Shown here piece by piece: positions 33,577 to 63,512 of a DNA stretch of 64,000 bases. Each line of letters begins with the position of its first letter. Within the stretch, counting starts at the first letter, position 1. Below the pieces are notes generated by a model. The model made no database searches. It saw nothing but the letters and a program-made list of their open reading frames with translations, and was not told the origin of the DNA. Position numbers and translations under genes: made by a program. The DNA is from Sideroxydans sp. CL21. GTDB taxonomy: Bacteria; Pseudomonadota; Gammaproteobacteria; Burkholderiales; Gallionellaceae. The stretch lies in NCBI RefSeq assembly GCF_902459525.1, contig NZ_LR699166.1, positions 1,562,501 through 1,626,500 on the forward strand, written 5' to 3'.

Positions 33577-33611
33577 TCTTCAGTAAGCTTTGATGAGTCT
33601 GCGCTGGAACC

Positions 33612-36792: not shown

Positions 36793-38469
<1,677 letters not shown>

Positions 38470-38492
<23 letters not shown>

Positions 38493-41047: not shown

Positions 41048-41078
41048 GGTGCTGAAGTGCTTAACAGGAGGCCACGAA

Positions 41079-43864: not shown

Positions 43865-43880
43865 GGAGCGATTGCGAATA

Positions 43881-44261: not shown

Positions 44262-44293
44262 TAAATGTTGTCGGTATTGGAAAGGGAAGCAGG

Positions 44294-44845
44294 ATGAACG
44301 TCAGTTCGATATGCATGGCGCGGAAGAAAACGGGTGATGAGCAGGGTTTCACCTATATTGCGCTGCTCATTTTCATCGCCATCATGGGTGCAGGACTCGC
44401 TGCGACAGGCGAGGTATGGAATATGACGATAAAGCGGGAAAAGGAAGAGGAACTTCTCTTTGTCGGCAATCAGTTCCGCAACGCCATCACTATGTACTAC
44501 TACCGTACCCCCGGTCAGTCGGGACGTTACCCGATGAGTCTGGAAGATTTGCTGAAAGACCCGCGTTATCCGGCTACAAAGCGATATTTGAGGAAGATTT
44601 ATCTTGATCCGATAACCAATAGCACCAATTGGGAATTGGTCAAAGGACCGAACGGAGAGATTTTAGGTGTGCATAGCGCGTCGGAAGATGAGCCGGTGAA
44701 GAAAAGCAATTTCAGTTTTGCCGATCAAGGTTTCGAGGGACAAATGAAATATTCGGATTGGGCATTCATGATTTCCGCAAGATTTGTCCCGGCACCTGCA
44801 GTGGCGAATCCTTCAGGTACGTCGGTAAATCCTCTCAAACCATAA
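44294..44845 (+). CDS. Prepilin-like pseudopilin with unusual cleavage region
   Basis: 183 residues from the ATG at 44294 (a later start at 44315 is possible; the frame is open to 44255). A leader ending G-F-T-Y-I-A resembles a prepilin site but has alanine rather than glutamate at position +5 after the cleavage, which is unusual because Glu5 normally supports subunit docking. GspK tip pseudopilins also lack Glu5. The soluble part is long, with YRTPGQSGRYPMSLEDLL and a C-terminal alanine/proline tail. It is the last gene before a NarL-type regulator. Confidence 0.75.
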   Translation: MNVSSICMARKKTGDEQGFTYIALLIFIAIMGAGLAATGEVWNMTIKREKEEELLFVGNQFRNAITMYYYRTPGQSGRYPMSLEDLLKDPRYPATKRYLRKIYLDPITNSTNWELVKGPNGEILGVHSASEDEPVKKSNFSFADQGFEGQMKYSDWAFMISARFVPAPAVANPSGTSVNPLKP

Positions 44846-44873: not shown

Positions 44874-45533
44874 ATGAACGGGAAACACCGCATTATGATC
44901 GTCGAAAACCATACCTTGCTCAGGGCAGGGTTGCGAATGCTGTTGTCGCAGGATGACGAACTTGAAGTTGTCGGTGAAGCGGATAACGGTCGTGAAGCGA
45001 TCAAGTTAGTCCTGAAGTTGGTGCCGCATCTGATACTTACGGATTTGAATATGCCCGGGATGAACGGCATCGAGGCGACCCGGGCCATCAAAATGCTATT
45101 GCCCGAAACCAAAATACTGGTACTAACCGCCCATAAAACCGATGAGTATATTCACGAAAGTCTTAAGGCCGGCGCTGATGGTTATATGCTAAAGGAAGCT
45201 ACGCATAGTGAGTTGAGTGTCGCGATACATAGTATTTTGAATGGCAAGACTTACCTGAGCCCGGATATCTCGGAAAGAGTCATCAACGGTTACCTGAATC
45301 CAGGCAATACAGCGAGCCTCCCCAGCGCGTGGGATACGTTGACCTTCCGGGAGAGAGAGATTCTCAAGCTTGTTGCGGAAGGACATGCCAACAAGCACAT
45401 CGCTGATTACCTTTGCCTGAGCGTCAAGACTGTAGAAAAGCACCGTTCCAACCTGATGAAGAAGCTGAATCTGCACAACGCATCGACCCTGACAGCGTAC
45501 GCAATAGAAAAAGGGCTGGTGACGATATGCTGA
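44874..45533 (+). CDS. NarL/FixJ-type response regulator
   Basis: 219 residues with a receiver domain (acidic residues near 10-12, phospho-acceptor in LTDLNMPGMNG) and a LuxR-type helix-turn-helix (TFREREILKLVAEGHANKHIA, then SVKTVEKHRSNLMKKL). It lies 28 bases after the last pseudopilin and probably belongs to the same operon. The receiver is a candidate target of the HisKA_3 kinase at 34107. It is a close relative in architecture to the regulator at 32932. Confidence 0.94.
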   Translation: MNGKHRIMIVENHTLLRAGLRMLLSQDDELEVVGEADNGREAIKLVLKLVPHLILTDLNMPGMNGIEATRAIKMLLPETKILVLTAHKTDEYIHESLKAGADGYMLKEATHSELSVAIHSILNGKTYLSPDISERVINGYLNPGNTASLPSAWDTLTFREREILKLVAEGHANKHIADYLCLSVKTVEKHRSNLMKKLNLHNASTLTAYAIEKGLVTIC

Positions 45534-45592: not shown

Positions 45593-46240
45593 ATGAAAAC
45601 TGCTACCTATCCCTTTGCGCTAATTGCGCTTGTTATATTAGGTTCCAGCCCCTCAATTCCCGGGGCAGAGCTTGAAGATGCTGGCAGTATGCACGCTCAT
45701 CATCACATGATGATGGAACAAACGAAACATCAAATTGCGGATTACAAATTACCGCAGATACAGCTAGTACGCGAGGATGGGAAAAATGTCTCTTTAATCG
45801 AAGAATTGAATGATGGTCGTCCATTGGTTTTGAATTTCATGTACACCACCTGCACCGAAATCTGCCCTTTAACGAGTAAAACTTTCGCCGAATTGCAGAA
45901 TAAGCTCGGGAATGATCGTGATCGGGTGCACATGGTTTCGATCTCGATTGACCCGGAGCAGGATACGCCAGAAGTTCTTGCCAAATACGCCCATAAGTTT
46001 GGAGCAGGCACGCAGTGGCAATTCTATACAGGCACAACCGAAGCGAGCATTGCAGCGCAGCGATCCTTTGAAGTCTATCGTGGGGACAAGATGGAACACA
46101 ATCCTGTGACTTTCATTCGCGCTGCTCCGGGAAAACCCTGGCTGAGGATCGACGGTTTCGCCAAGTCTGATGAACTGTTAAGCAGCTTGCGAGATATGGA
46201 TGTCTTCAAGGATGAGCAGCATCCGGGAATCGCTTATTAA
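45593..46240 (+). CDS. SCO1/SenC/PrrC-family copper chaperone
   Basis: 215 residues. A signal peptide or anchor is followed by a His/Met-rich segment (HAHHHMMMEQTKH, near residues 35-47) and a thioredoxin-like fold with the copper ligands C87 and C91 (CTEICP) and H169. SCO proteins deliver copper to cytochrome oxidase CuA and to other copper enzymes. Here, with no cytochrome oxidase genes nearby and multicopper-oxidase-like genes just downstream, a role in maturing those proteins is likely. The histidine/methionine extension may collect copper. A GGAG element precedes the ATG. Confidence 0.92.
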   Translation: MKTATYPFALIALVILGSSPSIPGAELEDAGSMHAHHHMMMEQTKHQIADYKLPQIQLVREDGKNVSLIEELNDGRPLVLNFMYTTCTEICPLTSKTFAELQNKLGNDRDRVHMVSISIDPEQDTPEVLAKYAHKFGAGTQWQFYTGTTEASIAAQRSFEVYRGDKMEHNPVTFIRAAPGKPWLRIDGFAKSDELLSSLRDMDVFKDEQHPGIAY

Positions 46241-46524: not shown

Positions 46525-46815
46525 ATGTTCACTGATCATATGTTATTCAGCAGGGTAACCGAGGTGCTTGGGGTCCTTGTCATGCTGTACTCATTTGCAA
46601 TGAGAATTCAAAGCCGGAATCCGTTCTGGTTGCATCCGGCGTCAGGTTCCTGGACGCCCCTAAATAATAATTTTTATTTTTTCGCATTGCGCAATTGCGG
46701 CGCACTTTTATCAAATAACTTCAGATCTGGTGCGCACGTAACCAGGAAAAACTGCAATTTATTCCCGGCAGGGCGCCGAGCGTCCGCAAATGGGAAGGAG
46801 GAGACATCATGCTGA
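46525..46815 (+). CDS. Possible small membrane protein, uncertain
   Basis: 96 codons, ATG 46525 with a perfect AGGAGG element upstream. The first 28 residues form a hydrophobic segment (VTEVLGVLVMLYSFAM), and the rest is mixed and not conserved-looking. It overlaps the next gene by seven bases. No family was recognised. The strong ribosome-binding site is the reason for listing it; it may instead be a translated leader of the multicopper oxidase operon. Confidence 0.4.
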   Translation: MFTDHMLFSRVTEVLGVLVMLYSFAMRIQSRNPFWLHPASGSWTPLNNNFYFFALRNCGALLSNNFRSGAHVTRKNCNLFPAGRRASANGKEETSC

Positions 46816-48713
46816 ACTTTTCCTGCTTTGAAGAACGGCTACTGCTGGCATTAATATTGAGCGTCTTTGCGGGAGCGGCTGGCGCCACTTCGTTCCGGGT
46901 TCAATGTCCAAGCAACACGATTACGCATCCGTCGACACTCAACAATAACGATGCCGAACCTGCCTACATCAGTCCGACGACATTTGCGCTCGGTAGCAAT
47001 GGGTATCAGGTGCCATCTGCGAACGTAAACGGCGCGATCAAGTGTCAACAAATCTCCGGCGGCGACGGTTACGCGACGATGGCCGACGGCACGCAAACGT
47101 TCATGTTCTCGTTCGGGCCGCTCTCCGGACTCGGGGCAATTGCGAACGGGCAACCTGGTACTGACTTCCCTAGCGCGTTCAACACGATGTACACAGGCAC
47201 GTTCCAGCCTGGCGATCCGGCAGCGAGCGACGGAATTGCAGCCAACACGTGGCCCACGTGGCTCGGGTTTCCCCTCTCGACTGCAGGATTCACGTATAAC
47301 GGCGCCGTCGGGCTGGCTCTCGATATTGCGAACACCGTCAACATCTACAGCATCAGTGAAGCCGGGAGCACGGTGACCGTGACTCCGAACGCGCCGTTGG
47401 GCGTAAATGTCGGCGATCAGGTTGTCATCGCAAACATCATTCCAGCAGGCTACAACGGGACCTTCACGGTCACTAGCGTCGGTGGTGTTCAGGGAACCGG
47501 CTTTCCGCCCAGCTATTCCTTCACGTATACCAATAATTCGGCCACCGGGCTGGCTGCGGCGACTGCATTGACCGTCGGCACCGCATCAACCCCACCGAGA
47601 ATCGATGGTCACGTGGATCCGCGCCAGATCATGGACGTCGGCGTGATGAACGGTAATATTCCGGCACCCTTGATGGCGATCGACGAGGATGACGAATTCT
47701 TTCTCACGCTTTCCAACGTCGGGATGATCATGCGCCCAGACCTGTTCGAGCAGCATACGGTCCACTTCCACGGTTATCCCAACGCCTCCGCGTTCTACGA
47801 TGGCGTGCCTGACGCCTCGGTCGCCATCAATATCGGCGGCAGCTTCACCTATTACTACCTTGCGCCTGACGCCGGCACCTACTTCTGGCACTGCCACATC
47901 ACACCGCCCGAACACTTGCAGATGGGTATGGTCGGGCAAATCTATGTGCGTCCGCGGCAGAATCGGGTACCGGCCGGTAGCAGCCTTTATGCTGCATTGC
48001 GGCAACAAAATGGGATCGGCCCGACGCCCTTCTCTCCGAAAGATCTGCGCACGGTTTGCAATCCATCCGTCGATATTCTGTGCAGTACCAACATGCCGGT
48101 CATCAATACAGGTGTCGTCCAGGGCAACGATAAATTGGGTAACCCACAGAAGTATGCCTATAACGACGGAGACGGCTCAACTGCATACGATGTTGAGTAC
48201 CCGATCCAGATTCACGGTTTCGACCCGAATTTCCACTTTGTTGGCATGACCTTCAACCCGGAAGCGTTTGTCGACATGAAGGACAAGTATTTCCTGCTCA
48301 ACGGGCGCAGCTATCCCGATACAGTCACGCCCGGCCCGCTGGCGACACAGTCGGCAGATGGCAAAATGCATTACTCGCAGCCGCTGCCTGCCATCATCAA
48401 CATACCTGCAGGCGGGAAGGCGCTTCTGCGCATTTCAGATCTGGACGTCTCGGAGTATCAGACGCTGGCTTCAATGGGTATTCCGATGAAGGTCATCGGC
48501 TTCAACGCCAAGCTGTTGCGCGATCAGGCCGGCAACAACATGTACTACACAACCAATTCGATCACCCTGGGGGGAGGCGAATCCCTCGACGTGATTCTGG
48601 ACAGTACCGGCATTCCCGCGGGCACGTACTACCTATACACCTCCAACCTCGATCACCTGTCAAACGACGCCGAGAACTTTGGCGGGCTGATGACCGAGGT
48701 ACACATCAACTAG
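46809..48713 (+). CDS. Multicopper-oxidase-like protein A (copper motifs 1 and 2/T1)
   Basis: 634 residues with a signal peptide (cleaved near AGAAGA, residue 25). Copper ligands are in one cupredoxin domain: H316-T-V-H319-F-H321-G and, about 40 residues later, W-H361-C362-H363-x5-H369-x4-M374. The first matches motif 1 (HxHG); the second sits where motif 2 is expected but carries the Cys and Met of a type 1 copper site. The HPxHxH motif 3 is absent. A second cupredoxin-like domain follows. It is secreted; the T2SS genes upstream are the probable exporter. AAGGAGG precedes the ATG. The partner gene starts 10 bases after the stop codon. Confidence 0.85.
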   Translation: MLNFSCFEERLLLALILSVFAGAAGATSFRVQCPSNTITHPSTLNNNDAEPAYISPTTFALGSNGYQVPSANVNGAIKCQQISGGDGYATMADGTQTFMFSFGPLSGLGAIANGQPGTDFPSAFNTMYTGTFQPGDPAASDGIAANTWPTWLGFPLSTAGFTYNGAVGLALDIANTVNIYSISEAGSTVTVTPNAPLGVNVGDQVVIANIIPAGYNGTFTVTSVGGVQGTGFPPSYSFTYTNNSATGLAAATALTVGTASTPPRIDGHVDPRQIMDVGVMNGNIPAPLMAIDEDDEFFLTLSNVGMIMRPDLFEQHTVHFHGYPNASAFYDGVPDASVAINIGGSFTYYYLAPDAGTYFWHCHITPPEHLQMGMVGQIYVRPRQNRVPAGSSLYAALRQQNGIGPTPFSPKDLRTVCNPSVDILCSTNMPVINTGVVQGNDKLGNPQKYAYNDGDGSTAYDVEYPIQIHGFDPNFHFVGMTFNPEAFVDMKDKYFLLNGRSYPDTVTPGPLATQSADGKMHYSQPLPAIINIPAGGKALLRISDLDVSEYQTLASMGIPMKVIGFNAKLLRDQAGNNMYYTTNSITLGGGESLDVILDSTGIPAGTYYLYTSNLDHLSNDAENFGGLMTEVHIN

Positions 48714-48723
48714 GAGAACAGCC

Positions 48724-50322
48724 ATGAGCCAACTATACGCAAAGAACTTACTCGGGCGCCTCCTGGTGGTTGCTATGACGGGCTTAACCACATTGCTTGC
48801 CGGTACTGCGCAAGCGGCGGCTCCCGGCATAACTGGCCCGACCTTTTATCTGACGGCACAAACGGCTAACCTCAATCAGCCCGATGGGGCGGCTGTTTAC
48901 GCTTGGGGCTACGGCTGTGACACGGCGCATACGCCGAGCGGTTTCAATCCGCCAGTATCCCTGATGCCGGGCGCTAATTGCCCAACGATGCAGGTTCCAG
49001 GGCCCACGCTGATCGTCACGGAAGGACAGACGGTTACGGTGAATCTGACGAATAATCTCCCCACAGCGGCTGGCAACACATCAATCCTGTTTCCCGGCTT
49101 TCAGGCTGCATCGACGGGTGGCGTGGCCGGCCTCCTGACACAAGAGGCGGCGCCCGGCGGTACGGTGAGCTATACGTTCACTGCGACTTCGCCGGGGACA
49201 CACGCCTACTACAGCGGGACGCAAGGCGACCTGCAGATTGAGATGGGCCTGTACGGCGCAATCATCGTGCTGCCGGCCACCGTCCCCACTGCTTGTACGA
49301 CAGGCTACGCTGCAAAGAACCTTTCGGCGGAAGCGGCTCATCATGAATCTGACTTCCGGCTGTCAAAGTCCGCCTACGACCATCCCAAAACCTGCTACGA
49401 CAGGGAGTACCTGTTCCAGTTCGCTGAGATGGATCCCAACATTCACAACCAGGCATTGGCGCAGGTCACGGCTTTGGCTGGCTGCATTGCCGGGGCTCCG
49501 GCATGCAGTCTTGAGGTTCCGACCGAGCCTTACCACCCAGCCTACTTCCTGATCAACGGACGTTCCATGCCGGATGACATGGACGCCAACTACGCAATCG
49601 AATATCCGCATCAGCCCTATAACGGGAATCCTCACATGCATCCGGGGGAACAAACGCTGATCCGCGTCATCGGCCAAGGCCGGTGGCAACATCCGTTCCA
49701 CGAGCATGCGAATCATGTGCGCATCCTCGGGCGTGACGGGAACCTCATACAGACTCCGCCCGACTCGACTGGTGCCACCGAGCTTGCCGGGATGCTGATG
49801 TTCACCACTGACACCACACCGGGCCAGGCGTTCGATGGGATTTTTTACTACACGGGGAGGGGCTTGAACTGGGATATGTACGGTCACAATCCGGTTTCCG
49901 CTGATCCGCTCGCTTTGCTCACCTGTACTCCGGATGCCAACGGCTACAACACTGGAGATCCGACCGCAGTCAACTATTTCGAGTGGTGCCAGGATCACAA
50001 CAAGCCGCTGCAAGTCGCTCCATTCGGGGATGTCGCGAGCGGTGGCCCCGCCACTCTTCCAGATCCGAACATCCTGACCAATGGCGCCTGGTACAGCGGC
50101 AGTCCCTATCTAGGGCCGGATGCGACCACCCGCGCGACTGGTCCCACCAGTGTTTTTCAGCCCTCCAACATTCAGGCCAATCCATCCAACGAGCGCGGCT
50201 ATGCGTTTATGTGGCACTCGCACAACGAGCGCGAGATCACTACCAACAATGTATTCCCCGGTGGAATGCTGATGATGATGCTGATTGATTCCCGTGAATT
50301 CGTGATCGACGAGTCTAATTAG
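48724..50322 (+). CDS. Multicopper-oxidase-like protein B (motif 3, motif 4-like)
   Basis: 532 residues with a signal peptide (cleavage near residue 32, AQA). It carries W-Q-H323-P-F-H326-E-H328-A-N-H331, an HPxHxH motif, and near the C-terminus W-H498-S499-H500 followed by GGM515, a motif 4-like segment in which Ser replaces the usual type 1 Cys. The regions where motifs 1 and 2 should lie are degenerate (TSILFPG and GTHAYYSGT). It therefore complements protein A. AGGAGA lies before the ATG, and the spacing of 10 bases to the previous gene supports coupled expression. Function as a partner subunit is an inference. Confidence 0.85.
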   Translation: MSQLYAKNLLGRLLVVAMTGLTTLLAGTAQAAAPGITGPTFYLTAQTANLNQPDGAAVYAWGYGCDTAHTPSGFNPPVSLMPGANCPTMQVPGPTLIVTEGQTVTVNLTNNLPTAAGNTSILFPGFQAASTGGVAGLLTQEAAPGGTVSYTFTATSPGTHAYYSGTQGDLQIEMGLYGAIIVLPATVPTACTTGYAAKNLSAEAAHHESDFRLSKSAYDHPKTCYDREYLFQFAEMDPNIHNQALAQVTALAGCIAGAPACSLEVPTEPYHPAYFLINGRSMPDDMDANYAIEYPHQPYNGNPHMHPGEQTLIRVIGQGRWQHPFHEHANHVRILGRDGNLIQTPPDSTGATELAGMLMFTTDTTPGQAFDGIFYYTGRGLNWDMYGHNPVSADPLALLTCTPDANGYNTGDPTAVNYFEWCQDHNKPLQVAPFGDVASGGPATLPDPNILTNGAWYSGSPYLGPDATTRATGPTSVFQPSNIQANPSNERGYAFMWHSHNEREITTNNVFPGGMLMMMLIDSREFVIDESN

Positions 50323-50339: not shown

Positions 50340-53300
50340 ATGAGAGACAACATACTCAAGCTGAATAAGCTAGCAGCGGCTACAGCACTGTCCGCTTTCC
50401 TATTGGCGAGTGGAGCGTCATTCGCGCTCAATCTGACTGCGGGGCCGGCCACCGCAACCCTGCCTGATGGTGCAACGATACCGATGTGGGGCTACAGCTG
50501 CGGCACGGTCGTGTCCGGCGAGACCGCGACCTGCGCTGCGTTGAATACTAGCGCGGGTGCCGGCGGTTGGTCCCCTGTCGTGATTACCGTTCCGCCGGGG
50601 CCCCTGTCGATCAACCTGACGAATAATCTCTCGTTCACGCCGACTGGCGGCACGACTCCCAACACCGTGCCCACTTCACTGGTGATTGTGGGTCAGTTGG
50701 GCGGAGGTCTCGGAGCGCCGCAATATGGGTCAGTTACGCCCCACGCCGCGCAAGTCGGTACGACTTGGCCGATCGCGGGTGGTACCGCGAGCTTTACACC
50801 TCCGCCGCAAGGGCCACGTGTGCAATCGTTCGGCACGGAAGTAGCCGCGACCGGTGCGACCCCGACGACCGGAGAGTGCGCCTCCGGATGTCCACTCACC
50901 TGGAGCAACCTGCGGCCGGGCACCTACCTGATTGAGTCCGGTACACACCCGTCTATACAGGGTCCCATGGGCCTGTATGGAATCCTGGTGGTCACCACGG
51001 CGCCCAGCACGAGTTCCTCAGGCACGGCATATCCGGCAGTAGGGACTACCCCCGCCGTAACCTACAACGCTGAAGTCCCGCTGCTTTTCAGCGAAATCGA
51101 TCCAGTCCAGAATGGCGCCGTCCAGACCGCAGTCAGCACTGCGGGTTTCAGCGAGACCAAGGTGTGGTCCGGTCAGCCCGGTGGTTGCGGCAATCCCAAC
51201 TCAGGCGTCGGGATCGTGAACACCTGCTATCCCCCAGCGGTGAACTATACGCCGCTCTATTACATGATCAACGGCGTCGCGTTTAACAAGACTCATGCCG
51301 GGATTTCGTTGTTCCCGGCATCGCCAGGCTCGGCAACGGCCCCGATCACAGGGAACGTTTTGGTGCGCATGGTGAATGCCGGCTTGCGTATGCATGTGCC
51401 GTCGATCGTAGGCTCTCTGACTGGCGGCACTCCGGCAGTAGGCAGCACTCCGGCAGCGTCACCGTCCTCAGGGTTTGCACTGATCGCGGAGGACGGCAAC
51501 AGGCTGCCCGGCATTCCCAAGGTGCAGAGTGATGTATTTATGGCTGCGGGCAAGACTTACGACGTGATGGTGAATGTCCCTGCCGCTGGCGGGACAGCGC
51601 TTCCGGTGTATGACCGCGAATTGAGTCTCTCAGGCAATGCGATCGAGCGCGATGCAGGCATGCTGGCTTACATTAGTGTTAATGGTGCCGGCCTTCCGGC
51701 TGCGAGTTCGCTCGGCACAGCGGTTGCCAGACCGGATACCTACAACTCCCTGGTTGCAGGTCAGGCTTTCAGCGTGTCGGATCCGTCCAGGGGTTTGATC
51801 GCTAACGATACCAATGTCTATGGCGTTAAAATATCCACACCGCCGAGCAATGGCACGGTCACTCTCAGCGCCAACGGCACGTTTACTTATGTTCCCACAG
51901 GGACCGCCACCTCAGATTCCTTTGGGTATTGTGCTAACGGCACGACTACAGTGTGCGCGACGGTGACTCTGGCTGCGGCGACGATCGAGGGTGCCTCCGG
52001 CATCACTTGTACTGCGACCACGTACAATGCGAGCATGGCCACGTACCTGGCTGTCAAGACACCAGGTGTCCTGGCAGGTTGTAAAGACGCCGCGGGCTAT
52101 CCTCTTACCGTTAATACGTCGACGGTTACAGCTGCCGGGATGACGGTTCATTCGGATGCGAACGGCGGGTTCACAGCCATCGCCCCGGGGCCGGGCACCT
52201 ATACGTTCACGTATCAGGCGCAGAACTCCCAGGGAACGCTTAGTACGGGCACAACCATGACGGTCGTATTCCCCGCGGGGAGCGGCTTGGGCGTCACAGT
52301 TCTGGACGGTGGCGACAAGAAGACTCCAATCACCGACTATCGCTGGGTAATCGAGGAAGACCGGACGTTCTACATCGATCCGTCGTGTACGACCAACCCG
52401 CCTACAGGATGCCCGAGTGCGGGGCTCGGCATCGTTCCAACCTTGGGAGTCAACTTCCACACCAGCTACATGCCCTACGTGGCGCAGGGCTGCACCGGCC
52501 CGCTTTCCTGCGAAGCAGGCCAGACCGTTATCGATCCGAAAACAGGATCTCACGTGAAAACGGTCTGCGACATCAGCAATGGCGTTTGCAGGCCTGATCT
52601 GACAGGGAACGGAATGACGCCGGTCTTTCCCAGCCAGGTCGCTCTGGATCCGACCAAGCGCTATTACATCTCAATCCTGCCGGGTGACGCGGCCAATCCG
52701 TTTGGTGCCGGGTATACGGGGACACCGGATTGCTCAAAGACGGGAATGGCCGCTGGTCATTGTGGTCACGGCATGGGCGGCGCTCCGATCGGAGCGACAT
52801 GCCAGACGACCGGCACCACGACGACCTGCGTAGCGCCGCTCACCGGAGCCACTTGCACGCCGGTAGCGGGTGCAACGACCTGTATTCCACCGGTCACAGT
52901 GTTGGCGCAGCCCGCGCCCTACCAGCCGGGAAAACTTTCCGTGCTCGTGTTCGAGGACGACTTTCCGCTGAACGGTGAACAGGATGGTGGAGGCGGGGTC
53001 GACGTCCTGTCTCCGCAGGAACCGGGTCTGGGAAGTTTCCAGATCCACCTGTGGGACGCGATGGCTCAGAACGGTGATTTCACCGGCCAGATGACCTACG
53101 ACATGTTCAACCAGCCGCTGACCAACAGCCTGGACGGAACGATAGATCCGAATACAGGACTCAATGCCTGCCCGATTACAAAACTGGGACAAGGTGTCAC
53201 CGGCATGATCGTGACCTGCCCGAAGTACGAAGGTGACGGCAAGACCCTTTCCCCGTTGGCCGGCCAGGCGGTGGTCAACAACCTGATGCCGGGACGGTTC

Positions 53301-56300
53301 GGCGTGGTTGCAACGCCGGGGGCGGACCGCATCGCACGGGGTGAAGAATGGCTGCAGACCAATACACTGGATGGCCAGAAGGCACACGATGCCTTCGTCA
53401 GGATCGGCGAGCCGAGTTACTTCCAGGAGTTCGGGCCTGCGGGCTACCACGTCATGATCGGCTTTGCGAACCCGAAGATTATCAGCAGCCGCCTGAAGGA
53501 ACTCTGCGCGGGCACCGATCCCAGCGCGCCACAGTATCCGGCAGCTGCGAGTTGCGGCAACACACTGAAGGGCACGATCACCGGCCAGCGTCTGAGCCGG
53601 ACGCCGGATGAAAGACTGTACGAAAGCGGTTCGCGCGATACCTACTATTGGACCCAGTGCTACGTCAGCGTCGGCGATCCCGACGGCGAAGATTTCGCCT
53701 TTGCCAAGTGCGACGCCAAAGGCAATTTCACCCTCACCGGCCTTCCCGACGGCGACTGGCGAATCACGACTTTCGACCAATGGAACGATCAACTGGTGGA
53801 CGGTCTTTCGACACCTGTCAGGCTGGGCTCGACAACTAGTTTTTGCCCGGGTTCAGGATCCTCGCAGCACAATTGCAACATGGGAAACATCGCGTCGACC
53901 CAATGGCAGACCAACCTTTACACGCGAACCTTTATCGACGACAACAAGGATGGACTCTCCCAGTCCTCCGAGGCGGGAATACCGTTTGCAAACGTCGCGG
54001 TCCGGCTGCGCGACGGCAGCCTCGAGAACCTGCTCGTCACGGATTTCACAGGTACTGCGAATTTCAACGAGACATTCCCGCTGTTTAGCTGGTACACCGT
54101 TGAAACTGACGTGACCCGTTACAAGAACACCGGTACCCACGTGGTTTACGACGTTGGTGGGCCGGCCGACCAGACATTGACTACCTGCGGCGGTTCCGCG
54201 CCTGGTGCCGGATACCCTCCATGCGGAACGTCAACGATCGGCAAGAACCTGGCCAATACCGCCGAGCAGGTCTCGCTGCCGGTCAATCTCCGCCTGCCGG
54301 GCGCCGTCTATTGCGCCGGTGCGGACTGCACCGGCAAGACAATTCAGGCTCCGGCCAGCGATCCGCCCAGCGTATGCACCACCACTAATGGTGCGACGAC
54401 CTGCAGTACCCAGCTCTCCTCGGGCCGTATCGATCCGCCGTGGGTTGGTGGCGTCGAGGGCTGGCAGGGCTTCCCGGGCCAGAACAATTTCCTCGAATTC
54501 GGCAAGGAGCCCTATGTTGCCGGTGAGAATGGCGGCATCAAGGGCCACGTCGTCTACGCTTCGACGCGCCCGTTCGATGATCCGCAGATGCTGGTCCAGA
54601 CGCAGTGGGAACCACTGGTCCCGCATGTCACGATCAACCTGTACCAGGAGGGGGTTGGAACGGATGGAATCACCCCGACGTTAACGCTGGTGGACCATAC
54701 GCAGACCAGCAGTTTCGACGATTGGGCGCAGGGCTTCCATACGGATGCCAGCGGGAAAACCGTACCGAATATGAACTGCCCGGGCCAGGGCGGGGCGCCG
54801 GGCACGCCTGGGGGAACCGCGCTCGCAGATCTGTTCTTCTTCTCGCTGTACAACCAGCCGGAGTACCTTGACTTTTACAACTCGCAGCACGGCGGGGCGG
54901 CTCCAACTTCGCTGCCGTACAACTCGCAGTTCAAGTGCTATGACGGCATGCACAACTGGAATCAACTCCAGCCGGCACCCTACGACGGCATGTACCAGTT
55001 CCCCAGCGTGACCTCGATGGATCCGGCGACGGGCAAGCCCAATGGTACGAATTGCACGATCTGCCAGGCCAATAACCTTAGCGCTACGACCCTGCCGACG
55101 AGCGATTTGTACTACGGTCTCCCGCAACTGCCGCCCGGCAAGTACGTGGTGGAAGTGGTGGTGCCCCCCGGCTTCGAACTAGTGAAGGAAGAGGACAAGA
55201 ACATCCTGATCGGTGACAACTATATCGCGCCGGTGACGCAGCAGTTCGGCGGTCTGGGCAACATATTCATCCTGCCCGACCAGGCTTCGGTGGGCGCAGC
55301 CTACAACGCGAACAACGCCCTGAATCCGACACAAGGTCTGGGCACCAAGCCGAATAACCAGATCGTCCCGGGATTCGTGCCTGAGCCTACTTGGCCATGC
55401 GTCGGCGAAGCGCGGATCGTACCGGACTATATCAGCCTGTTCCCCGGTTCCAAAGAAGTGGCGCCGTTCGCCGGAGCGACCCGTCGCCTTTGTGATCGCA
55501 AGGAAGTGACGCTGAACGACCAGATGGGCGCGATCGCGAAGTTCTATGTCTATACCTCGATCCACATCGCCTCCAAGTTCACCGGCGGCATCACGGACGA
55601 CTACACGTCGGAATTCGATCCGTTCTCTCCGCAATTCGGCGAGAAGTTCGCTCCGCCCGATCTGCCGGTATCCGTCCGGGACTGGGCAGGGAACGAAACC
55701 AACCGCGTGTATGCGGACCACTGGGGCGCGTACAACGGGATGACGTACTCGACTTGGGAAGTCAATCCGCCCAACCCGACCGGATATGCACCGACGATGA
55801 TGGTGTTCTGCATGAACGATCTGGGGCCGACGGCCGACATACGATCGACGATCATTAATTCCGCCGGGACGGTAGGCCCCAATCCGAACTTCGGGAAGAT
55901 AGGCACGGATCCGTTGTTCACTCAGGGTTACAGCCAATTCTGTTATGAACTGCCGTTCATGCCCGGGACAACCCAATACCTGGATACGCCCGTCGTACCG
56001 ACATCCGCCTTCGCAGGCGCAGGGTATAACAATGCGGACTGCGCCTATCCGGATGCCACACCCGCAGTCAAGGAAGTCGACGGCGATGGCATCGGTCCCT
56101 GGGTGAGCGCACCGGGCAAGACACTGACGATCACCGCGCTCGGAGATCAGCAAGTGCCCAACAACGCCTACAACGGCCCGTCGGCGACGACTGCGCCCTA
56201 CAACCAGAAGACCGTCAACCGGCACTTCGGCTTCGGCAATACCCCAGGTACCGTCGCCCTGGTAGATAAGCATGGTGTTTCTCATCCGCTCACGAGTGTG

Positions 56301-58982
56301 AGCTGGAGCGATTCGACCATTACCGGTCAAGTGCCTGATGAGGTGGCGGAATGTGCCATCCAGCAACAGGCACAATACGGCGGCAAGACCGCGAGGTGCG
56401 GCCAACTGGTCATCACGGCGGCAAACGGCAAGGAGTCGATCGACACCGTGACCGTGACGATCGGCGGCAAGGCCCCGACGCGCTTGGCAACCGATAATCC
56501 GTTGACGCAAAATGGCCCGGGTTCGATTCAGCAGGCGATTGACGCTGCCGCTCCGGGCGACCTGATCATTGTTCCTGCCGGTACGTACAGCGAGATGTTG
56601 CTGATGTGGAAGCCGGTCCGGTTGCAAGGTGTCGGGGCCGCCTCTAGCGTCATCAACGCGACCACGCAGCCTGGAGGCAAACTGGATCCATGGCGCCGGC
56701 AAGTCAATTGTCTGTTCGGACTGACGCTCGCCGGCTGGCCTATCTCGGGCACGAATCCTTACGATCCTTCCGGAACATACACGTGCTCGGCGGCCATGCA
56801 GTTCCAGGTGGACCGGATACCGACCGAGGCGACCATTGGCTGGGATGCCACACTGAACGGCAATCTTGCCGAGATGCTACAAGAGCCTTCGCTGATGGGC
56901 GCTCTTGAAGGAGCTGGCATCACAGTCCTGGCCAAGGGCGTGAATTTCCCGGCCGGACAAGATCCATTCCAGCTCAACGCCGGAGAAGCGGCCTTCCCGA
57001 CTGGCACCACGCTGCTGACAAGTGCCGACTGTACAACTGGTTCAGGCGGAAGCAATCCGAATCCAAGCAACTTCCAGTGCAACCCATCGGCTATTGACGG
57101 CTTGGGCATCACCGAAAGTTCACAGGGTGGCGGTGCGGTCTTCTTGCACGCCTGGGCACATAACATTCAAATTGCGAACAACCGGATTACCGCCAATTCC
57201 GGAACGCTTTCGGGTGGCATCAACATCGGTCAGGGCGAATATCCGCCTTCGTACACCGCGGGCGCCGCGAACCTGGCGCCGGGTTCCTGCGAGAGCAGTG
57301 AAATTGCGGGTGTTCAGCTGCCGTATTGCCATAACCTGAACGTGAACGTGCACCACAATGCGGTCACGCTGAATTCCTCCACCGGCGACGAATTGTTTTC
57401 TGCGACGCCGGCGGGGGCAGGCGGTGTCACTTTCTGCACCGGCGCCGACTATTACAAGTTCAACTACAACTGGATCTGCGGTAACCTGAGTAGCGGGGAC
57501 GGCGGCGGCGTGGCTCACGTCGGATTCAGCAAGAACGGTGAAATCGAGCACAACGTGATCGTGTTCAATCAGAGCACCAACCCGACGATTCCGACCAACG
57601 GTGGTGGTATCGTCGTCATGGGTGCCCCCGACGTGGATCCCACTTGCGGTGCAACGACCGACCAGGATTGCGTGTCCGCTCTCGGCTCAATCGGGCCGAG
57701 CGACGGCATAGGCCCCGGATTGAAGATCAATGGCAACCTGATCATGGGTAACGCTGCGGAAAGCGGAAGCGGCGGCGGCATCGCCTTGCAAAACGTCAAC
57801 GGTGCTGAAGTGCTCGCTTTCCCGAACAAACCTGCGCAGTGGTACGGGGTGAGCGTCACCAACAACATCATCGCCAATAACGTCGCGGGCTGGGACGGAG
57901 CAGGCATCTCGCTGCTGGATGCGTTGAAGGCGAACATCACCAACAATACGATCGCTTCCAACTCGACCACGGCGACATCGGGAACGCTGTTCAACACCCT
58001 GGGGGCGCCGCTGGCCAGTACCCAGAATACCACCAACAATTGCGTCAACTCGGCCACTGGCTGCGGAAATACTTCGCTGCCTGAGCCTTCCGGCTTGGTG
58101 AGCATCCAGAACAGCGCGATTCTGGTGGCGAACATGAAACAGCTGCCCGCGGCGACACCGATCATATGCCCGGACGGCTACTATGCGCCCGGTACGGCAG
58201 CCAAGAACGGGACATGCAAGAGTATCTCGTATCCGGTGCTGGCCAATAACGTGTTCTGGCAGAACAGTGCCTACTATGTAGGCGTGGACTCATTCAGTAC
58301 GCAATACCAGCAGGCCGTGGTCACGCTGTTCAACGCGTTTACCGGAACAAAGCCCGGGACCCAGACGACAACGGGTGCCTGCGTTCCAGCCAGCTATTGG
58401 GACATTGGCGTGCGCGGCGACACCAGTGCGACACCGAATTCGGGTTCAGGCTTTACCCTCAACCCGACTTATTCGGTGCTGACGAGCACTGCAGGTTATA
58501 GCGGAGCTTCGCAGCACAACATGGCATCGCCTCCGGGCTTTGTCAGCCAGTACTGCGACGGTGGACGCATTCCTCCAGAATCCGGAGTGTCGGGCTGGGC
58601 TGTGCCTCCGGGCATTTCGGATGCGAGCGTGCCCAATCCGATCTTCAACTTGACTCCGGTAGCAACAGTGGACGAAGGCAACAACTGGGTCAATCTGCGG
58701 TGGGGGCCGCTGACGACGAACAACCCGACAGTCAAGGGGGCGGATGGAAATTATGGCGGCGGCTTGCCTCTTGGCGACTACGCGCTGGTGTCGACTTCCC
58801 CGGCCATCGATTACGTGCCTGTTGGGCAATCGCATCCGTCGACGGACTTCTTCGGTAATCCGCGGCCGGATCCCTCCAACCTGAGCGCATTTGACGTCGG
58901 CGCGGTCGAGTTTGTACAGGCGAGTGTGGTTTTCACCGTACCGCCTCAATTCAATCAGGCTCTGCCCAATCAGGCACAGTAG
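50340..58982 (+). CDS. 2880-residue secreted multidomain protein with degenerate cupredoxin head and beta-helix
   Basis: 2880 residues with a signal peptide (AAATALSAFLLASGASFA). The N-terminal part (about 30-460) resembles a multicopper oxidase (GLYG, LFSEIDPVQNG, NAGLRMHVPSIVG), but the histidine motifs are largely lost. Then come a cadherin-like domain (about 466-550), Cna/SdrD-type regions (about 1105-1240), an IPT/TIG-like domain (about 1930-2035), a right-handed parallel beta-helix beginning SIQQAIDAAAPGDLIIVPAGTY (from about 2058) and a C-terminal anchor-like region (about 2825-2860). It is cysteine-containing throughout and is probably surface exposed. Its head is paralogous to protein B. 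It could be a metal-binding or adhesive scaffold. GAGGAG precedes the ATG. Confidence 0.8.
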   Translation: MRDNILKLNKLAAATALSAFLLASGASFALNLTAGPATATLPDGATIPMWGYSCGTVVSGETATCAALNTSAGAGGWSPVVITVPPGPLSINLTNNLSFTPTGGTTPNTVPTSLVIVGQLGGGLGAPQYGSVTPHAAQVGTTWPIAGGTASFTPPPQGPRVQSFGTEVAATGATPTTGECASGCPLTWSNLRPGTYLIESGTHPSIQGPMGLYGILVVTTAPSTSSSGTAYPAVGTTPAVTYNAEVPLLFSEIDPVQNGAVQTAVSTAGFSETKVWSGQPGGCGNPNSGVGIVNTCYPPAVNYTPLYYMINGVAFNKTHAGISLFPASPGSATAPITGNVLVRMVNAGLRMHVPSIVGSLTGGTPAVGSTPAASPSSGFALIAEDGNRLPGIPKVQSDVFMAAGKTYDVMVNVPAAGGTALPVYDRELSLSGNAIERDAGMLAYISVNGAGLPAASSLGTAVARPDTYNSLVAGQAFSVSDPSRGLIANDTNVYGVKISTPPSNGTVTLSANGTFTYVPTGTATSDSFGYCANGTTTVCATVTLAAATIEGASGITCTATTYNASMATYLAVKTPGVLAGCKDAAGYPLTVNTSTVTAAGMTVHSDANGGFTAIAPGPGTYTFTYQAQNSQGTLSTGTTMTVVFPAGSGLGVTVLDGGDKKTPITDYRWVIEEDRTFYIDPSCTTNPPTGCPSAGLGIVPTLGVNFHTSYMPYVAQGCTGPLSCEAGQTVIDPKTGSHVKTVCDISNGVCRPDLTGNGMTPVFPSQVALDPTKRYYISILPGDAANPFGAGYTGTPDCSKTGMAAGHCGHGMGGAPIGATCQTTGTTTTCVAPLTGATCTPVAGATTCIPPVTVLAQPAPYQPGKLSVLVFEDDFPLNGEQDGGGGVDVLSPQEPGLGSFQIHLWDAMAQNGDFTGQMTYDMFNQPLTNSLDGTIDPNTGLNACPITKLGQGVTGMIVTCPKYEGDGKTLSPLAGQAVVNNLMPGRFGVVATPGADRIARGEEWLQTNTLDGQKAHDAFVRIGEPSYFQEFGPAGYHVMIGFANPKIISSRLKELCAGTDPSAPQYPAAASCGNTLKGTITGQRLSRTPDERLYESGSRDTYYWTQCYVSVGDPDGEDFAFAKCDAKGNFTLTGLPDGDWRITTFDQWNDQLVDGLSTPVRLGSTTSFCPGSGSSQHNCNMGNIASTQWQTNLYTRTFIDDNKDGLSQSSEAGIPFANVAVRLRDGSLENLLVTDFTGTANFNETFPLFSWYTVETDVTRYKNTGTHVVYDVGGPADQTLTTCGGSAPGAGYPPCGTSTIGKNLANTAEQVSLPVNLRLPGAVYCAGADCTGKTIQAPASDPPSVCTTTNGATTCSTQLSSGRIDPPWVGGVEGWQGFPGQNNFLEFGKEPYVAGENGGIKGHVVYASTRPFDDPQMLVQTQWEPLVPHVTINLYQEGVGTDGITPTLTLVDHTQTSSFDDWAQGFHTDASGKTVPNMNCPGQGGAPGTPGGTALADLFFFSLYNQPEYLDFYNSQHGGAAPTSLPYNSQFKCYDGMHNWNQLQPAPYDGMYQFPSVTSMDPATGKPNGTNCTICQANNLSATTLPTSDLYYGLPQLPPGKYVVEVVVPPGFELVKEEDKNILIGDNYIAPVTQQFGGLGNIFILPDQASVGAAYNANNALNPTQGLGTKPNNQIVPGFVPEPTWPCVGEARIVPDYISLFPGSKEVAPFAGATRRLCDRKEVTLNDQMGAIAKFYVYTSIHIASKFTGGITDDYTSEFDPFSPQFGEKFAPPDLPVSVRDWAGNETNRVYADHWGAYNGMTYSTWEVNPPNPTGYAPTMMVFCMNDLGPTADIRSTIINSAGTVGPNPNFGKIGTDPLFTQGYSQFCYELPFMPGTTQYLDTPVVPTSAFAGAGYNNADCAYPDATPAVKEVDGDGIGPWVSAPGKTLTITALGDQQVPNNAYNGPSATTAPYNQKTVNRHFGFGNTPGTVALVDKHGVSHPLTSVSWSDSTITGQVPDEVAECAIQQQAQYGGKTARCGQLVITAANGKESIDTVTVTIGGKAPTRLATDNPLTQNGPGSIQQAIDAAAPGDLIIVPAGTYSEMLLMWKPVRLQGVGAASSVINATTQPGGKLDPWRRQVNCLFGLTLAGWPISGTNPYDPSGTYTCSAAMQFQVDRIPTEATIGWDATLNGNLAEMLQEPSLMGALEGAGITVLAKGVNFPAGQDPFQLNAGEAAFPTGTTLLTSADCTTGSGGSNPNPSNFQCNPSAIDGLGITESSQGGGAVFLHAWAHNIQIANNRITANSGTLSGGINIGQGEYPPSYTAGAANLAPGSCESSEIAGVQLPYCHNLNVNVHHNAVTLNSSTGDELFSATPAGAGGVTFCTGADYYKFNYNWICGNLSSGDGGGVAHVGFSKNGEIEHNVIVFNQSTNPTIPTNGGGIVVMGAPDVDPTCGATTDQDCVSALGSIGPSDGIGPGLKINGNLIMGNAAESGSGGGIALQNVNGAEVLAFPNKPAQWYGVSVTNNIIANNVAGWDGAGISLLDALKANITNNTIASNSTTATSGTLFNTLGAPLASTQNTTNNCVNSATGCGNTSLPEPSGLVSIQNSAILVANMKQLPAATPIICPDGYYAPGTAAKNGTCKSISYPVLANNVFWQNSAYYVGVDSFSTQYQQAVVTLFNAFTGTKPGTQTTTGACVPASYWDIGVRGDTSATPNSGSGFTLNPTYSVLTSTAGYSGASQHNMASPPGFVSQYCDGGRIPPESGVSGWAVPPGISDASVPNPIFNLTPVATVDEGNNWVNLRWGPLTTNNPTVKGADGNYGGGLPLGDYALVSTSPAIDYVPVGQSHPSTDFFGNPRPDPSNLSAFDVGAVEFVQASVVFTVPPQFNQALPNQAQ

Positions 58983-60045: not shown

Positions 60046-60116
60046 GTTTACCTTCCGCCGGATCGTCGCTGGTTTGAGCGCAAATTTTGGTGCGTATTTA
60101 AATGGGGGATGCAAAC

Positions 60117-60914: not shown

Positions 60915-61816
60915 ATGCCATGAGAATGATTGCAACTTGGGCATTGGCGTTGAGCTTTTCAGGTCTTGCGGTGGCCATTGAGCCTGCAAATGAGCAGGGA
61001 CTGTCAGCGATCCAGATTGTCGAGAAGAATGTTGCCGCAAGAGGAGGCCTGGATGCATGGCGGAAGGTTCAGTCCATGGTGTGGATAGGGCACATCGAAG
61101 GAGCAAATGTTCCAGAACCGAGGTTGCCGTTTGCCCTTGAAATGAAGCGTCCCAATAAAACGCGCTTTGAGGTCAAAGCGCAAGGCCAAACATCTGTGCG
61201 CATGTATGACGGGGCTCACGGCTGGAAGGTGCGTCCGTCGGGCAACGGCAGGCCTGATGTGCAGCCATACTCGTCCGATGAGTTGAGATTCGCGCGTGAT
61301 GGGCAGGTCATCGACGGGCCGCTCATGGATTATCAAGCCAAGGGAATTGCGGTTGCGCTGGAAGGCATTGATGATGTCGAGGGGCACAAGGCTTATCGCT
61401 TGAGCGTCAAGTTGCCATCAGGCAACAGCCATCATGTGTGGGTCGACGCCAAGACATTCCTGGACATCAAATACGATCGCATTTTCCGCAACAAATTTGG
61501 CCAGCCTGGCTCGGTGGCGGTGTTCTATCGCAACTACCAGACGATTGAGGGGCTTCAGATACCGCTCATGATCGAAAGCGGTGCGGACACTGGCAAGGTG
61601 ACGGAAAAACTGGTGATAGATAAAGTCTCACTGAATCTGCCACTGGAAGATCGGATGTTCGCCCAACCCGGTGTACCGGGTAGGCGTAGCATGGCTCCCG
61701 CCGGCATCAACTCGCCCAGGGCGGGCCGTCAAATGGACGGATCGGCGTTATCCATGCCCGCAGAGATGCCGAGGTTCAGCCCCCAATCCGTGCCCGGTTC
61801 GGGGGCGACTCACTAA
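60911..61816 (+). CDS. LolA-superfamily-like exported protein, copy 2
   Basis: 301 residues from a GTG at 60911 that overlaps the upstream stop (GTGA); an ATG at 60920 is the alternative. It shares IQIVEKNVAARGGLDAWRKV, YDGAHGWKVRPS, GPLMDYQAKGI and HHVWVDAKTFLD with copy 1. The C-terminus has an added Pro/Ala/Gly-rich tail of about 50 residues. The pair is a tandem duplication. Function unknown. Confidence 0.75.
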   Translation: MNAMRMIATWALALSFSGLAVAIEPANEQGLSAIQIVEKNVAARGGLDAWRKVQSMVWIGHIEGANVPEPRLPFALEMKRPNKTRFEVKAQGQTSVRMYDGAHGWKVRPSGNGRPDVQPYSSDELRFARDGQVIDGPLMDYQAKGIAVALEGIDDVEGHKAYRLSVKLPSGNSHHVWVDAKTFLDIKYDRIFRNKFGQPGSVAVFYRNYQTIEGLQIPLMIESGADTGKVTEKLVIDKVSLNLPLEDRMFAQPGVPGRRSMAPAGINSPRAGRQMDGSALSMPAEMPRFSPQSVPGSGATH

Positions 61817-61832
61817 TGCGCGCCCCCTGGTC

Positions 61833-63512
61833 ATGAATATTTGTCGCATGTTCAGGTTCTTGCGCGTAGCCGCATCAATTTGTGCAGGCGCCGTGATTCT
61901 CCTGATCGTCGCACTGGTCTACCCGATGGGCTACGCACGTGCCGATTCGATGACGAGTGCAGGTGAGGCAATCTACAGACGCGGCACTTTGGAATCGGGC
62001 GTACCGCTCGTGGCGTATCGCGAGGGCGGCATTCGCATGGAGGGAGCGGATGCGGCCTGCGTCAACTGCCACAGGCGCAGTGGTTTCGGCGTCAGAGAGG
62101 GCAGTATCCCCATACCGCCGATCACTGGCATGTATCTATTGCGTCGTGGTGACCACGGTACCGGAGATCAATCCCTGCCGTATGTCGAAACGATGCATGT
62201 TGGTCATGATCCTTTATATACCGATGCGACCCTCGCAAGAGCGATCCGCGAAGGTGTTGATGCTGCAGGAAAGCCGCTTAGCTATCTGATGCCGCAATTC
62301 GAGCTGAACGACGCAGATATGGCGGCGCTCATCAGCTATCTGAAAAGTCTGGACCAGCGGAAGACGCCCGGCGTCACGGACACGGTACTGCACTTTGCCA
62401 CCATCATCACGCCGGATGCCGATCCCGTTAAACGTCGCGGAATGCTCGATGTGATCGAGCGCTATTTTGCCGACAGAAACGCGGTTCAATTTGCTCCGTC
62501 ACCGCGCCTGCGCACGTCCAACAAGACAGCGTGGGCGAACACGATGTTCATGGTTAATCGCCGCTGGCAGCTGCATGTGTGGGAGCTGACCGGTCCGGCG
62601 AACACATGGGAGGAACAGCTGAAGCAGGATCTCGCCAGAGAACCGGTACTTGCGGTTGTGTCTGGACTGGGTGGCAAGAACTGGGAGCCGGTTCACGCCT
62701 TCTGCGAGCATGAGGTCCTGCCTTGCCTGTTTCCGAACGTCGAGGTACCCCCAATCAATGCCGACCGGGATTTCTATTCCCTGTATTTTTCAAGGGGAGT
62801 GCTGCTGGAAGCACAGCTGATAGCGAACAGGATACTGGAATCAGGCCGCGGCAAGGTAGTGAGCCAGATATACCGCGCCGGCGAGAGTGGCGAGCCAGCC
62901 GCCGAGGCACTCGGCGCAGCGCTTAAATCCCATGGCATTGCCGTGCATACTCATGTCCTTGCGCTGGGTGCGTCAGGCCGGGGTGTCGCCAAGGCCTTGC
63001 GCAAGGCTTCAAGCGCAAATGTGCTTGTCCTATGGTTGCGTCCACCCGATGTTGCTGCGCTCGGCCGTGCTCCCGCCTCGCCTGGTGTGGTGTTCATGTC
63101 TGGATTAATGGGGGGGCTCGAGTATTCGCCGCTACCGCCGAGTTGGCGCAGCCGCACGCATCTTGCATACCCGTTCGATTTGCCGGAAAAGCGGATCGTA
63201 CCCGTCGATTACGCGCTCGGCTGGTTCGCAATCCGGCACATTCCGGTCGTGGACGAGCAGGTACAGGCAGATACGTTCCTTGCGTGCGGTCTGCTTGCCG
63301 AGACACTCAGTGATATGGCCGATAATTTTGTGCCCGATTATCTCGTCGAGCGTGTCCAGGACATGCTTGCCCACCGAATCATTACCGGATATTACCCGCA
63401 CCTGTCGCTTGCACCAGGCCAGCGTTTTGCATCCAAAGGTGGATATGTCGTTCATTTCGCCGATTCCAGGGATGGCCGTTTGATTGCGGACTCCAATTGG
63501 CTGGTGCCGTGA
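61833..63512 (+). CDS. Cytochrome c fused to a periplasmic-binding-protein domain
   Basis: 559 residues. After a signal sequence or anchor (about residues 12-38) a class I cytochrome c domain has C76-V-N-C79-H80 and a likely Met ligand in YLMPQFEL (near residue 152). Then a large domain with two Rossmann-like lobes and VLHFATIITPDADPVK resembles a type I periplasmic binding protein. Such a fusion is unusual. It may sense or donate electrons in the copper-protein system. ATG 61833 is preferred. There is no strong ribosome-binding site, and the frame is open to 61671. Haem attachment would need the Ccm system at the left end. Confidence 0.78.
   Translation: MNICRMFRFLRVAASICAGAVILLIVALVYPMGYARADSMTSAGEAIYRRGTLESGVPLVAYREGGIRMEGADAACVNCHRRSGFGVREGSIPIPPITGMYLLRRGDHGTGDQSLPYVETMHVGHDPLYTDATLARAIREGVDAAGKPLSYLMPQFELNDADMAALISYLKSLDQRKTPGVTDTVLHFATIITPDADPVKRRGMLDVIERYFADRNAVQFAPSPRLRTSNKTAWANTMFMVNRRWQLHVWELTGPANTWEEQLKQDLAREPVLAVVSGLGGKNWEPVHAFCEHEVLPCLFPNVEVPPINADRDFYSLYFSRGVLLEAQLIANRILESGRGKVVSQIYRAGESGEPAAEALGAALKSHGIAVHTHVLALGASGRGVAKALRKASSANVLVLWLRPPDVAALGRAPASPGVVFMSGLMGGLEYSPLPPSWRSRTHLAYPFDLPEKRIVPVDYALGWFAIRHIPVVDEQVQADTFLACGLLAETLSDMADNFVPDYLVERVQDMLAHRIITGYYPHLSLAPGQRFASKGGYVVHFADSRDGRLIADSNWLVP

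Follow-up and report, generated by a model that had tools for sequence, protein, structure and literature searches.

Genes at the locus

We describe three consecutive genes in a window of 64,000 nucleotides from Sideroxydans sp. CL21 (contig NZ_LR699166.1, positions 1,562,501 to 1,626,500; the genome around the window is one contig of 3.77 Mb). These genes, here called A, B and C, are related to the two-domain multicopper oxidases (MCOs), and the copper ligands of one such enzyme appear to be divided between the first two of them (Table 1; positions are counted from the first letter of the window). On the plus strand, 10 bases separate the stop codon of A from the ATG of B, and 17 bases separate B from C; a ribosome-binding site precedes each of the three open reading frames (ORFs), of the GGAGG/GGAGA type for A and B. 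The long extension of C gives SdrD_B, cadherin and beta-helix-like matches. The closest named relative of B, at 92% identity, lies in a Sideroxydans assembly (locus L005), and the genome of the window also encodes an ordinary, complete two-domain MCO in one chain (L002, G000:C1:2024222-2024560).

Table 1 Genes and sequence features of the copper cluster, in window positions (aa, amino acids)
Feature	Coordinates	Strand	Description
Gene A	46809..48713	+	ORF, 634 aa; Pfam Cu-oxidase_3; best PDB match 3g5w
A H316-x2-H319-x-H321	47754..47771	+	Type-1 His and first HxH of trinuclear half site
A H361-C362-H363, H369, M374	47889..47930	+	Type-1 Cys/His/Met and second HxH of half site
A domain 2	48096..48704	+	Cupredoxin without copper ligands; alignment columns
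Gene B	48724..50322	+	ORF, 532 aa; Pfam; AlphaFold model; Foldseek best match 2zwn
B domain 1	48838..49278	+	Cupredoxin without ligand set; YYSGTQ instead of WHCHIT
B H323-PF-H326-E-H328	49690..49707	+	Domain-2 HxH (H326, H328), trinuclear half site
B W497-H498-S-H500	50212..50223	+	Second domain-2 HxH of trinuclear half site, assigned by pattern
Gene C	50340..58982	+	ORF, 2880 aa; two ligand-free cupredoxin domains, then long extension
C cupredoxin pair	50424..51719	+	Homologous to B; without ligand motifs
SCO1/SenC-type copper chaperone gene	45593..46240	+	Pfam PF02630, E 1.5e-23
Cytochrome c-domain protein gene	61671..63512	+	One CxxCH; Pfam PF00034

Pfam places multicopper oxidase domains in both A and B. 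The closest structure to A is the two-domain oxidase 3g5w, or 2zwn when a wider profile is used, and the A profile aligns with pieces of both 3g5w domains, the second weakly. Profile alignment with hhalign joins A to B across both domains (97.5%, E 7.5e-12), and B to C along domain 1 and the greater part of domain 2 (99.9%, E 7.9e-33). An AlphaFold model of B, computed from an alignment of 133 rows (the B of the window, 78 of 78 usable B, 24 of 71 A and 30 of 61 C sequences), reached a predicted local distance difference test score (pLDDT) of 76.8 and a predicted template modelling score (pTM) of 0.79, with low values in its C-terminal part; for this model Foldseek ranks the two-domain laccase 2zwn first (E 6.7e-17), ahead of ascorbate oxidase, a nitrite reductase and more two-domain oxidases. 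Because of the structural match of A, the A-B and B-C profile alignments and the fold predicted for B, we identify A, B and C as paralogs of the two-domain MCO family, each with two cupredoxin domains (by profile alignment in A and B, in B also by predicted fold, and in C by profile against B). We take both 3g5w (a blue copper oxidase of N. europaea) and 2zwn (a metagenomic laccase) to be enzymes of type C.

Several other identities were considered and rejected. Copper-resistance oxidases of the CopA/PcoA kind (TIGR01480) score 38.6 bits with A and 47.0 with B against a cut-off of 478.95, the copper nitrite reductase NirK (TIGR02376) scores 35.0 and 43.9 bits against a cut-off of 296.3, and A and B both fall far under the NCBIfam cut-offs for laccase, ascorbate oxidase and CueO. 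Within A, the N-terminal part is separated from domain 1 by an insertion (about residues 180-260, window 47330-47580) that shows little conservation among relatives, and the length of A from the first conserved stretch varies between 474 and 701 aa in full-length rows.

Division of the copper ligands

Ligand columns were compared in an alignment of 25 loci, picked for spread among the loci then collected, to which five complete two-domain oxidases were added: L002 from the genome of the window, and L091-L094 from its family. All 12 ligand columns are filled in each of the five reference oxidases. At the 25 loci, the eight domain-1 columns of A read, without exception, H, H, H, H, C, H, H, M, and its four domain-2 columns are free of His. 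B is without the eight-residue domain-1 set and has both His of the domain-2 HxH at every locus, and C has neither set. Each chain of a homotrimeric two-domain oxidase carries every ligand; here, by contrast, only the domain-1 set is present in A, only the domain-2 set in B, and none in C.

By homology, HTVHFH and HCHx5Hx4M of A make up the complete domain-1 set of a two-domain oxidase, that is, a type-1 copper site and half of a trinuclear centre, and the columns of H316, H319 and H321 are also His in 5/5 of the reference enzymes. In domain 2 of A, His is absent at both HxH columns and at the HDH columns of two-domain oxidases at all 25 loci, and the profile alignment sets LYTS or LYTT in A where domain 2 of 3g5w has IHDH. 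The B residues H326 and H328 align with the His of two-domain oxidases and are kept in 84/84 rows (a count that includes the gene of the window twice). The second B motif, WHSH, follows a long insertion, and MAFFT did not align H498 and H500 to the oxidase column; we assign it as the counterpart of HDH because it is invariant and fits an HxH..TNN..GG pattern. Taken in the wide sense, the MCO ligand set occurs once for A and B jointly, as the eight domain-1 residues of A with the HxH and, by pattern, the HSH of B.

An earlier note on this DNA had reported the ORFs of A (46809) and B (48724), their 10-base gap and their strong ribosome-binding sites, all of which we recover, and the copper residues it named are present at the positions it gave. 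Its residues for a 'motif 1' in A, HTVHFH, are correct but the label is not, since they are an HxxHxH set that completes domain 1 together with HCHx5Hx4M. The note had also treated the two genes as the whole unit; their adjacency holds, but the third gene, C (50340-58982), was missed.

Conservation and gene order

The wider comparison covers 121 loci, namely the window, two loci from plasmid records, the 80 best of 178 confirmed related loci and 38 that came from searches of whole genomes; these loci are not independent, the same B being found in L017/L127 and in L052/L055 and some genomes contributing several loci. Profiles of A, B and C built from the 25-locus alignment recovered 118 A, 120 B and 114 C ORFs. 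Both A motifs are present in 112 of the 118 A ORFs, the six exceptions being contig-edge fragments at L015, L055, L059 and L069, a fragment at L031, and L054, where H321 is changed to S. A degenerate A at L031 was considered and rejected, as the gene is broken within that contig. Both B motifs occur in 114 of the 120 B ORFs, and the other six are cut by the end of the stretch. Because they are kept in these proportions, the motifs of A and B are not a product of chance.

The complementary sets are missing from each chain. HCH occurs in none of the 120 B ORFs, and many B rows match the domain-1 pattern HxxHxHG through their domain-2 HPFHEHG, which is not a domain-1 set. None of the 118 A ORFs contains the B motif pair, or any HSH, HDH or HNH. 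In the cupredoxin part of C, neither HxxHxH nor HCH was found in the 114 ORFs, one of which has an isolated HSH. The loss of ligands from domain 1 of B, domain 2 of A and C could be read as the mark of decaying or degenerate oxidase copies without activity. We find this scarcely credible, since the remaining ligands are near-invariant across the 121 loci, which by record title represent several phyla, and since published homologs were present as protein and raised on magnetite, according to the accessible part of PMC12016527.

The setting of these maintained, divided ligands is constant as well. The order A, then B, then C on one strand is found at 108 of the 121 loci, and each of the other 13 (L012, L043, L048, L062, L070, L127, L128, L130-L132, L141, L175 and L183) runs into the end of its contig or stretch at the place expected for the absent gene. 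With narrow profiles, no ORF at 112 loci exceeds 60 bits with A and B alike, and a six-domain MCO in a single chain is ruled out by this result and by the presence of three genes. Open frames of 1220, 2290, 1066 and 1117 aa, examined as possible natural fusions, are A or B with open upstream sequence, not A plus B; wide profiles of A and B cross-match over the same residues, as paralogs. No stand-alone A or B with a complete ligand set was found among the 121 loci. One genome of Acidobacteria (G662) has five B matches, and the two examined (L018 and L057) are both A-B-C sets.

The clade of the window has long A and B proteins and, mostly, a huge C, and in a second, distant group (e.g. L097, L123, L125, L153, L155, L156, L158, L160, L178, L181) A and B are mostly compact. 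The size of C ranges from about 350 aa in the compact relatives L160, L153 and L178, where it comprises two cupredoxin domains and little more and still adjoins A-B, to over 2800 aa, where it also has adhesin-like and beta-helix-like parts. The A of L153 (5857-12000) lies at the C-terminal end of a frame that is open for at least 2048 aa; A may therefore, like C, carry a very long extension, in this case an N-terminal one. The compact A of L178 (1339-2598) carries HTTHLH in an otherwise ligand-free domain 2, a candidate relic or regain of a site.

In the B of the most divergent pair, at L176, H323 is replaced by F and HSH by HNH, with both HxH pairs intact. Because the first His of HPxHxH is, by homology with two-domain oxidases, not a ligand of the trinuclear centre, this B appears to keep what a shared site would need. 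Two C-like genes follow B at L176, and A has a stretch near its start, RRSFLKG, which we take to be twin-arginine-like.

Phylogeny and distribution

In a maximum likelihood tree of 80 rows from the 25 loci (quick search, with support from the Shimodaira-Hasegawa-like approximate likelihood ratio test (SH-aLRT) only, 29 of the 77 inner branches being open), A, B and C each form one clade (SH-aLRT 99, 99 and 97), and the branching within the three clades is much alike. Distances are correlated at 0.89 between A and B, 0.84 between A and C and 0.90 between B and C, values that are uncorrected for species descent. The three paralogs thus predate the spread of the sampled loci and have since moved as a unit.

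This shared history bears on the alternative that A and B alone are the enzyme, with C, encoded in the same operon, serving separately as an adhesin at the surface or in substrate binding. Such a role would suit the absence of ligand motifs from C and its long, adhesin-like extension in the clade of the window, yet several compact relatives (L160, L153 and L178) have a C of mostly two cupredoxin domains that still stands beside A-B, and C branches in step with B (r = 0.90). We regard a C that works apart from the enzyme as rather unlikely, while giving it more weight than any other alternative discussed here.

For the distribution, matches in genome samples were counted at the limit of each sample, and the reference genome was included in every one. 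In the family of the window 16 of 100 genomes have a match (limit 1e-12), and only G000, G017, G050, G072, G078 and G084 have one better than 1e-20; the ten others lie between 5e-13 and 3e-16, and the four examined (L091-L094) are complete two-domain oxidases. Two samples of the phylum gave matches in 2/299 and 2/349 genomes, the same two genomes in both cases, and B was matched in 7/274 genomes of the class. Elsewhere, matches were obtained in 14/247 genomes from the phylum of G657 (Granulicella), in 2/149 from that of G658 (titled Actinobacteria) and in 9/146 from that of G660 (titled Deltaproteobacteria). By record title, many carriers are Acidobacteria, Burkholderiales and others, and several phyla are represented.

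A putative copper site shared by A and B

Two-domain oxidases are trimers in which residues of two protomers bind each trinuclear centre, and in the type B enzyme treated in PMC13151041 (in the portion of the paper at hand) the trinuclear ligands come from domain 1 of one protomer and domain 2 of the next. We propose that A, B and C are diverged paralogs of a trimeric two-domain MCO of type C, whose domain 1 holds the type-1 copper. Domain 1 of each ancestral chain would also have provided one half of a trinuclear centre, and domain 2 the other half for the neighbouring chain. All sites but one would then have been lost, A retaining only the domain-1 set, B only the domain-2 set and C neither, such that the A/B interface would hold a single type-1 copper, in A, and a single trinuclear centre formed by four His from A and four from B. 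We favour this sharing of a site because ligand loss is complementary in the homologs, the A-B-C order is constant, and the loci examined show neither a fusion nor a stand-alone complete relative; on these comparative grounds, one shared catalytic copper site at the A/B interface is probable.

The earlier note had likewise divided one site between A and B, and this stands as the best comparative reading; what it missed is the trimeric two-domain ancestry, in which the trinuclear site was already common to two chains. Its statements that motifs 1 and 2 are degenerate in B and that A has no motif 3 agree with the counts given above, and neither the fused A+B genes for which it suggested a search nor the single-chain complete homologs that it set against its own reading have come to light among the loci examined.

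The role of C is a further step. C would most likely be the third ring member, with its long extension displaying or anchoring the enzyme outside the cell, yet for a full A:B:C ring, with the stoichiometry this implies, we see the balance as even. The type-1 copper of A would receive electrons from an extracellular donor (a phenol, Mn(II) or an Fe(II) mineral), and O2 would be reduced at the A/B trinuclear centre. The whole may therefore be pictured as a heterotrimeric oxidase and an unfused counterpart of ceruloplasmin, in which A, B and C form a pseudo-symmetric ring; four of the six domains would be free of ligands, and the only remaining type-1/trinuclear site would lie between A and B. 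Such an enzyme would act extracellularly, with mineral-bound Fe(II) or donors like it, and would be spread among environmental Acidobacteria, deltaproteobacteria, Burkholderiales and other proteobacteria; the arguments for and against this complete picture seem to us equally weighted. Magnetite data from Sideroxydans suggest mineral Fe(II) as the substrate, and for the Acidobacteria, Burkholderiales and other carriers, Mn(II) or phenols are as likely.

A number of observations weigh against a shared site. Ligand loss is not perfectly clean: a stray single H occurs at one domain-1 column in 5/25 B and 6/25 C, and at one domain-2 column in 1/25 C (a stray M is also seen at another domain-1 column in 3/25 B), and one of the 118 A ORFs, that of L178, has a second HxxHxH, HTTHLH, at the end of domain 2, so the loss of His there is not total. 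The assignment of WHSH is also challenged, in that MAFFT placed the region of B H388 (H in 18/25), and not WHSH, in the column of the second oxidase HxH, the HMMER alignment of WHSH to 2zwn is below significance (-2.0 bits), and the motif lies in the low-confidence end of the predicted model. The fold match of B to 2zwn is moderate (template modelling score 0.41 by query and 0.63 by target). A co-fold of A and B reached a pLDDT of 39.4 and a pTM of 0.29, yielded no usable model and speaks neither for contact nor against it; the copper-ligand regions are among the worst scored, probably due to the near-invariant alignment rows there. Furthermore, co-inheritance and gene order are signs of a functional link, not of contact, and the presumed A homolog of Sideroxydans lithotrophicus ES-1 (Slit_1818, see below) appears lower than the B and C homologs in the data accessible in PMC12016527.

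The lack of a usable co-fold, and the presence of cytochrome c-domain and SCO1 genes in the cluster, would also agree with separate roles for the two proteins, A being a type-1 copper electron carrier that feeds the nearby cytochrome c, B another copper or structural protein, and a trinuclear centre being absent. We judge this improbable, since A keeps the trinuclear His H319, H321, H361 and H363 in all complete ORFs except that of L054, residues that would be useless to a protein with type-1 copper only, and the matching four His are kept in the 114 B ORFs that extend as far as the second motif. The trinuclear centre is itself pseudo-symmetric, and identical halves could in principle face each other, so that symmetric A-A (and B-B) dimers would combine two identical half sites into an eight-His centre. 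Such dimers are very improbable in our view, given that they leave the complementary loss and the constant A-B-C unit unexplained, and that domain 1 meets domain 2, rather than another domain 1, in the two-domain oxidase of PMC13151041, as far as the available text describes it.

Neighbouring genes

Genes for an SCO1/SenC-type chaperone and a response regulator lie upstream of A, and LolA-like and cytochrome c-domain genes lie downstream of C (Table 1). An SCO1/SenC-like gene is found near 16 of 111 other loci, many of which are too short to show neighbours, and a gene like that for the cytochrome c-domain protein near 13 of 111. Between C and the cytochrome gene, two adjacent genes (window 60102-61816) are alike by eye; the first has the LolA-like Pfam match and the second is without a Pfam match.

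Directly before the copper cluster, window 35602-44845 holds a gene set resembling those of type II secretion or type IV pili, with T2SSF, T2SSE, PilN-like, T2SSM_b, secretin and N-methylated pseudopilin-like genes. The secretin (41031-43376) has a cohesin domain, and a similar secretin gene occurs near 21 of 111 other loci. This set might export the proteins of the copper cluster. Two-component genes stand on both sides of the secretion and copper clusters, at 31003-35084 and 44874-45533, and include a hybrid kinase, a kinase and two LuxR-type regulators.

Comparison with known systems

The cluster itself has already been published. In S. lithotrophicus ES-1, 'three tandem MCO-coding genes' were noted in 2017 (PMC5566968), and in 2025 Slit_1812-1818 were found to be raised on magnetite relative to Fe(II)-citrate (PMC12016527). 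The available sections of the latter describe Slit_1817 and Slit_1818 as having canonical MCO motifs and the larger Slit_1816 as lacking them, place similar clusters mostly in Burkholderiales and also in Anaeromyxobacter and Steroidobacteraceae, and include a table in which Slit_1816, 1817 and 1818 rise together, Slit_1818 being lowest. From gene order and size at L100 we infer that this is the published locus and that Slit_1818, 1817 and 1816 are A, B and C. The published cluster resembles that of the window in having two proteins with MCO motifs, a larger one without them, SCO1 and a cytochrome; however, the account given there grants canonical motifs to two of the three proteins and does not note half sites. 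The accessible parts of PMC5566968 and PMC12016527 do not mention a divided site in this cluster, those of PMC10654088 yielded nothing on the copper cluster, and among the titles and abstract openings listed by searches of open-access literature, none describes a trinuclear site that is divided or heteromeric. If the divided site is real, annotation counts two oxidases where probably one exists, and the magnetite-linked cluster of Sideroxydans offers a concrete biochemical target in which A and B are needed together.

Other extracellular systems can be likened to this cluster by description. MofA/OmpB are predicted extracellular MCOs with SCO1 and mofC-like cytochrome genes nearby, in the descriptions at hand, and MnxEFG is multimeric according to a cited title, the likeness resting on description and not on sequence. 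MnxG has the full ligand set in one chain.

The closest structural relatives are the two-domain enzymes 3g5w and 2zwn, which have the same two cupredoxin domains, A best matching the former and the B model the latter; in two-domain enzymes a trinuclear site between chains is normal, in so far as the literature examined covers them. Their chains are identical, however, and each carries all ligands, whereas here two paralogs divide the ligands and a third has none. Two-, three- and six-domain MCOs are described, in the parts of the literature examined, as having one kind of chain per enzyme. Six-domain oxidases (ceruloplasmin, algal Fox1 and bacterial six-domain MCO/MnxG) share with the proposed A:B:C assembly a total of six cupredoxin domains, of which at most one trinuclear site is kept (PMC3600357, available text), but they are monomers (PMC13151041, likewise in part), whereas here there are three genes and no fusion was seen. 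The evolutionary model outlined in the accessible portion of PMC3600357 derives them from a two-domain unit that was tripled and so had three sites of each kind, trinuclear and type-1, before most of these sites disappeared. The divided ligands of A and B, together with the ligand-free third paralog, would resemble a step that this model requires, here reached without fusion.

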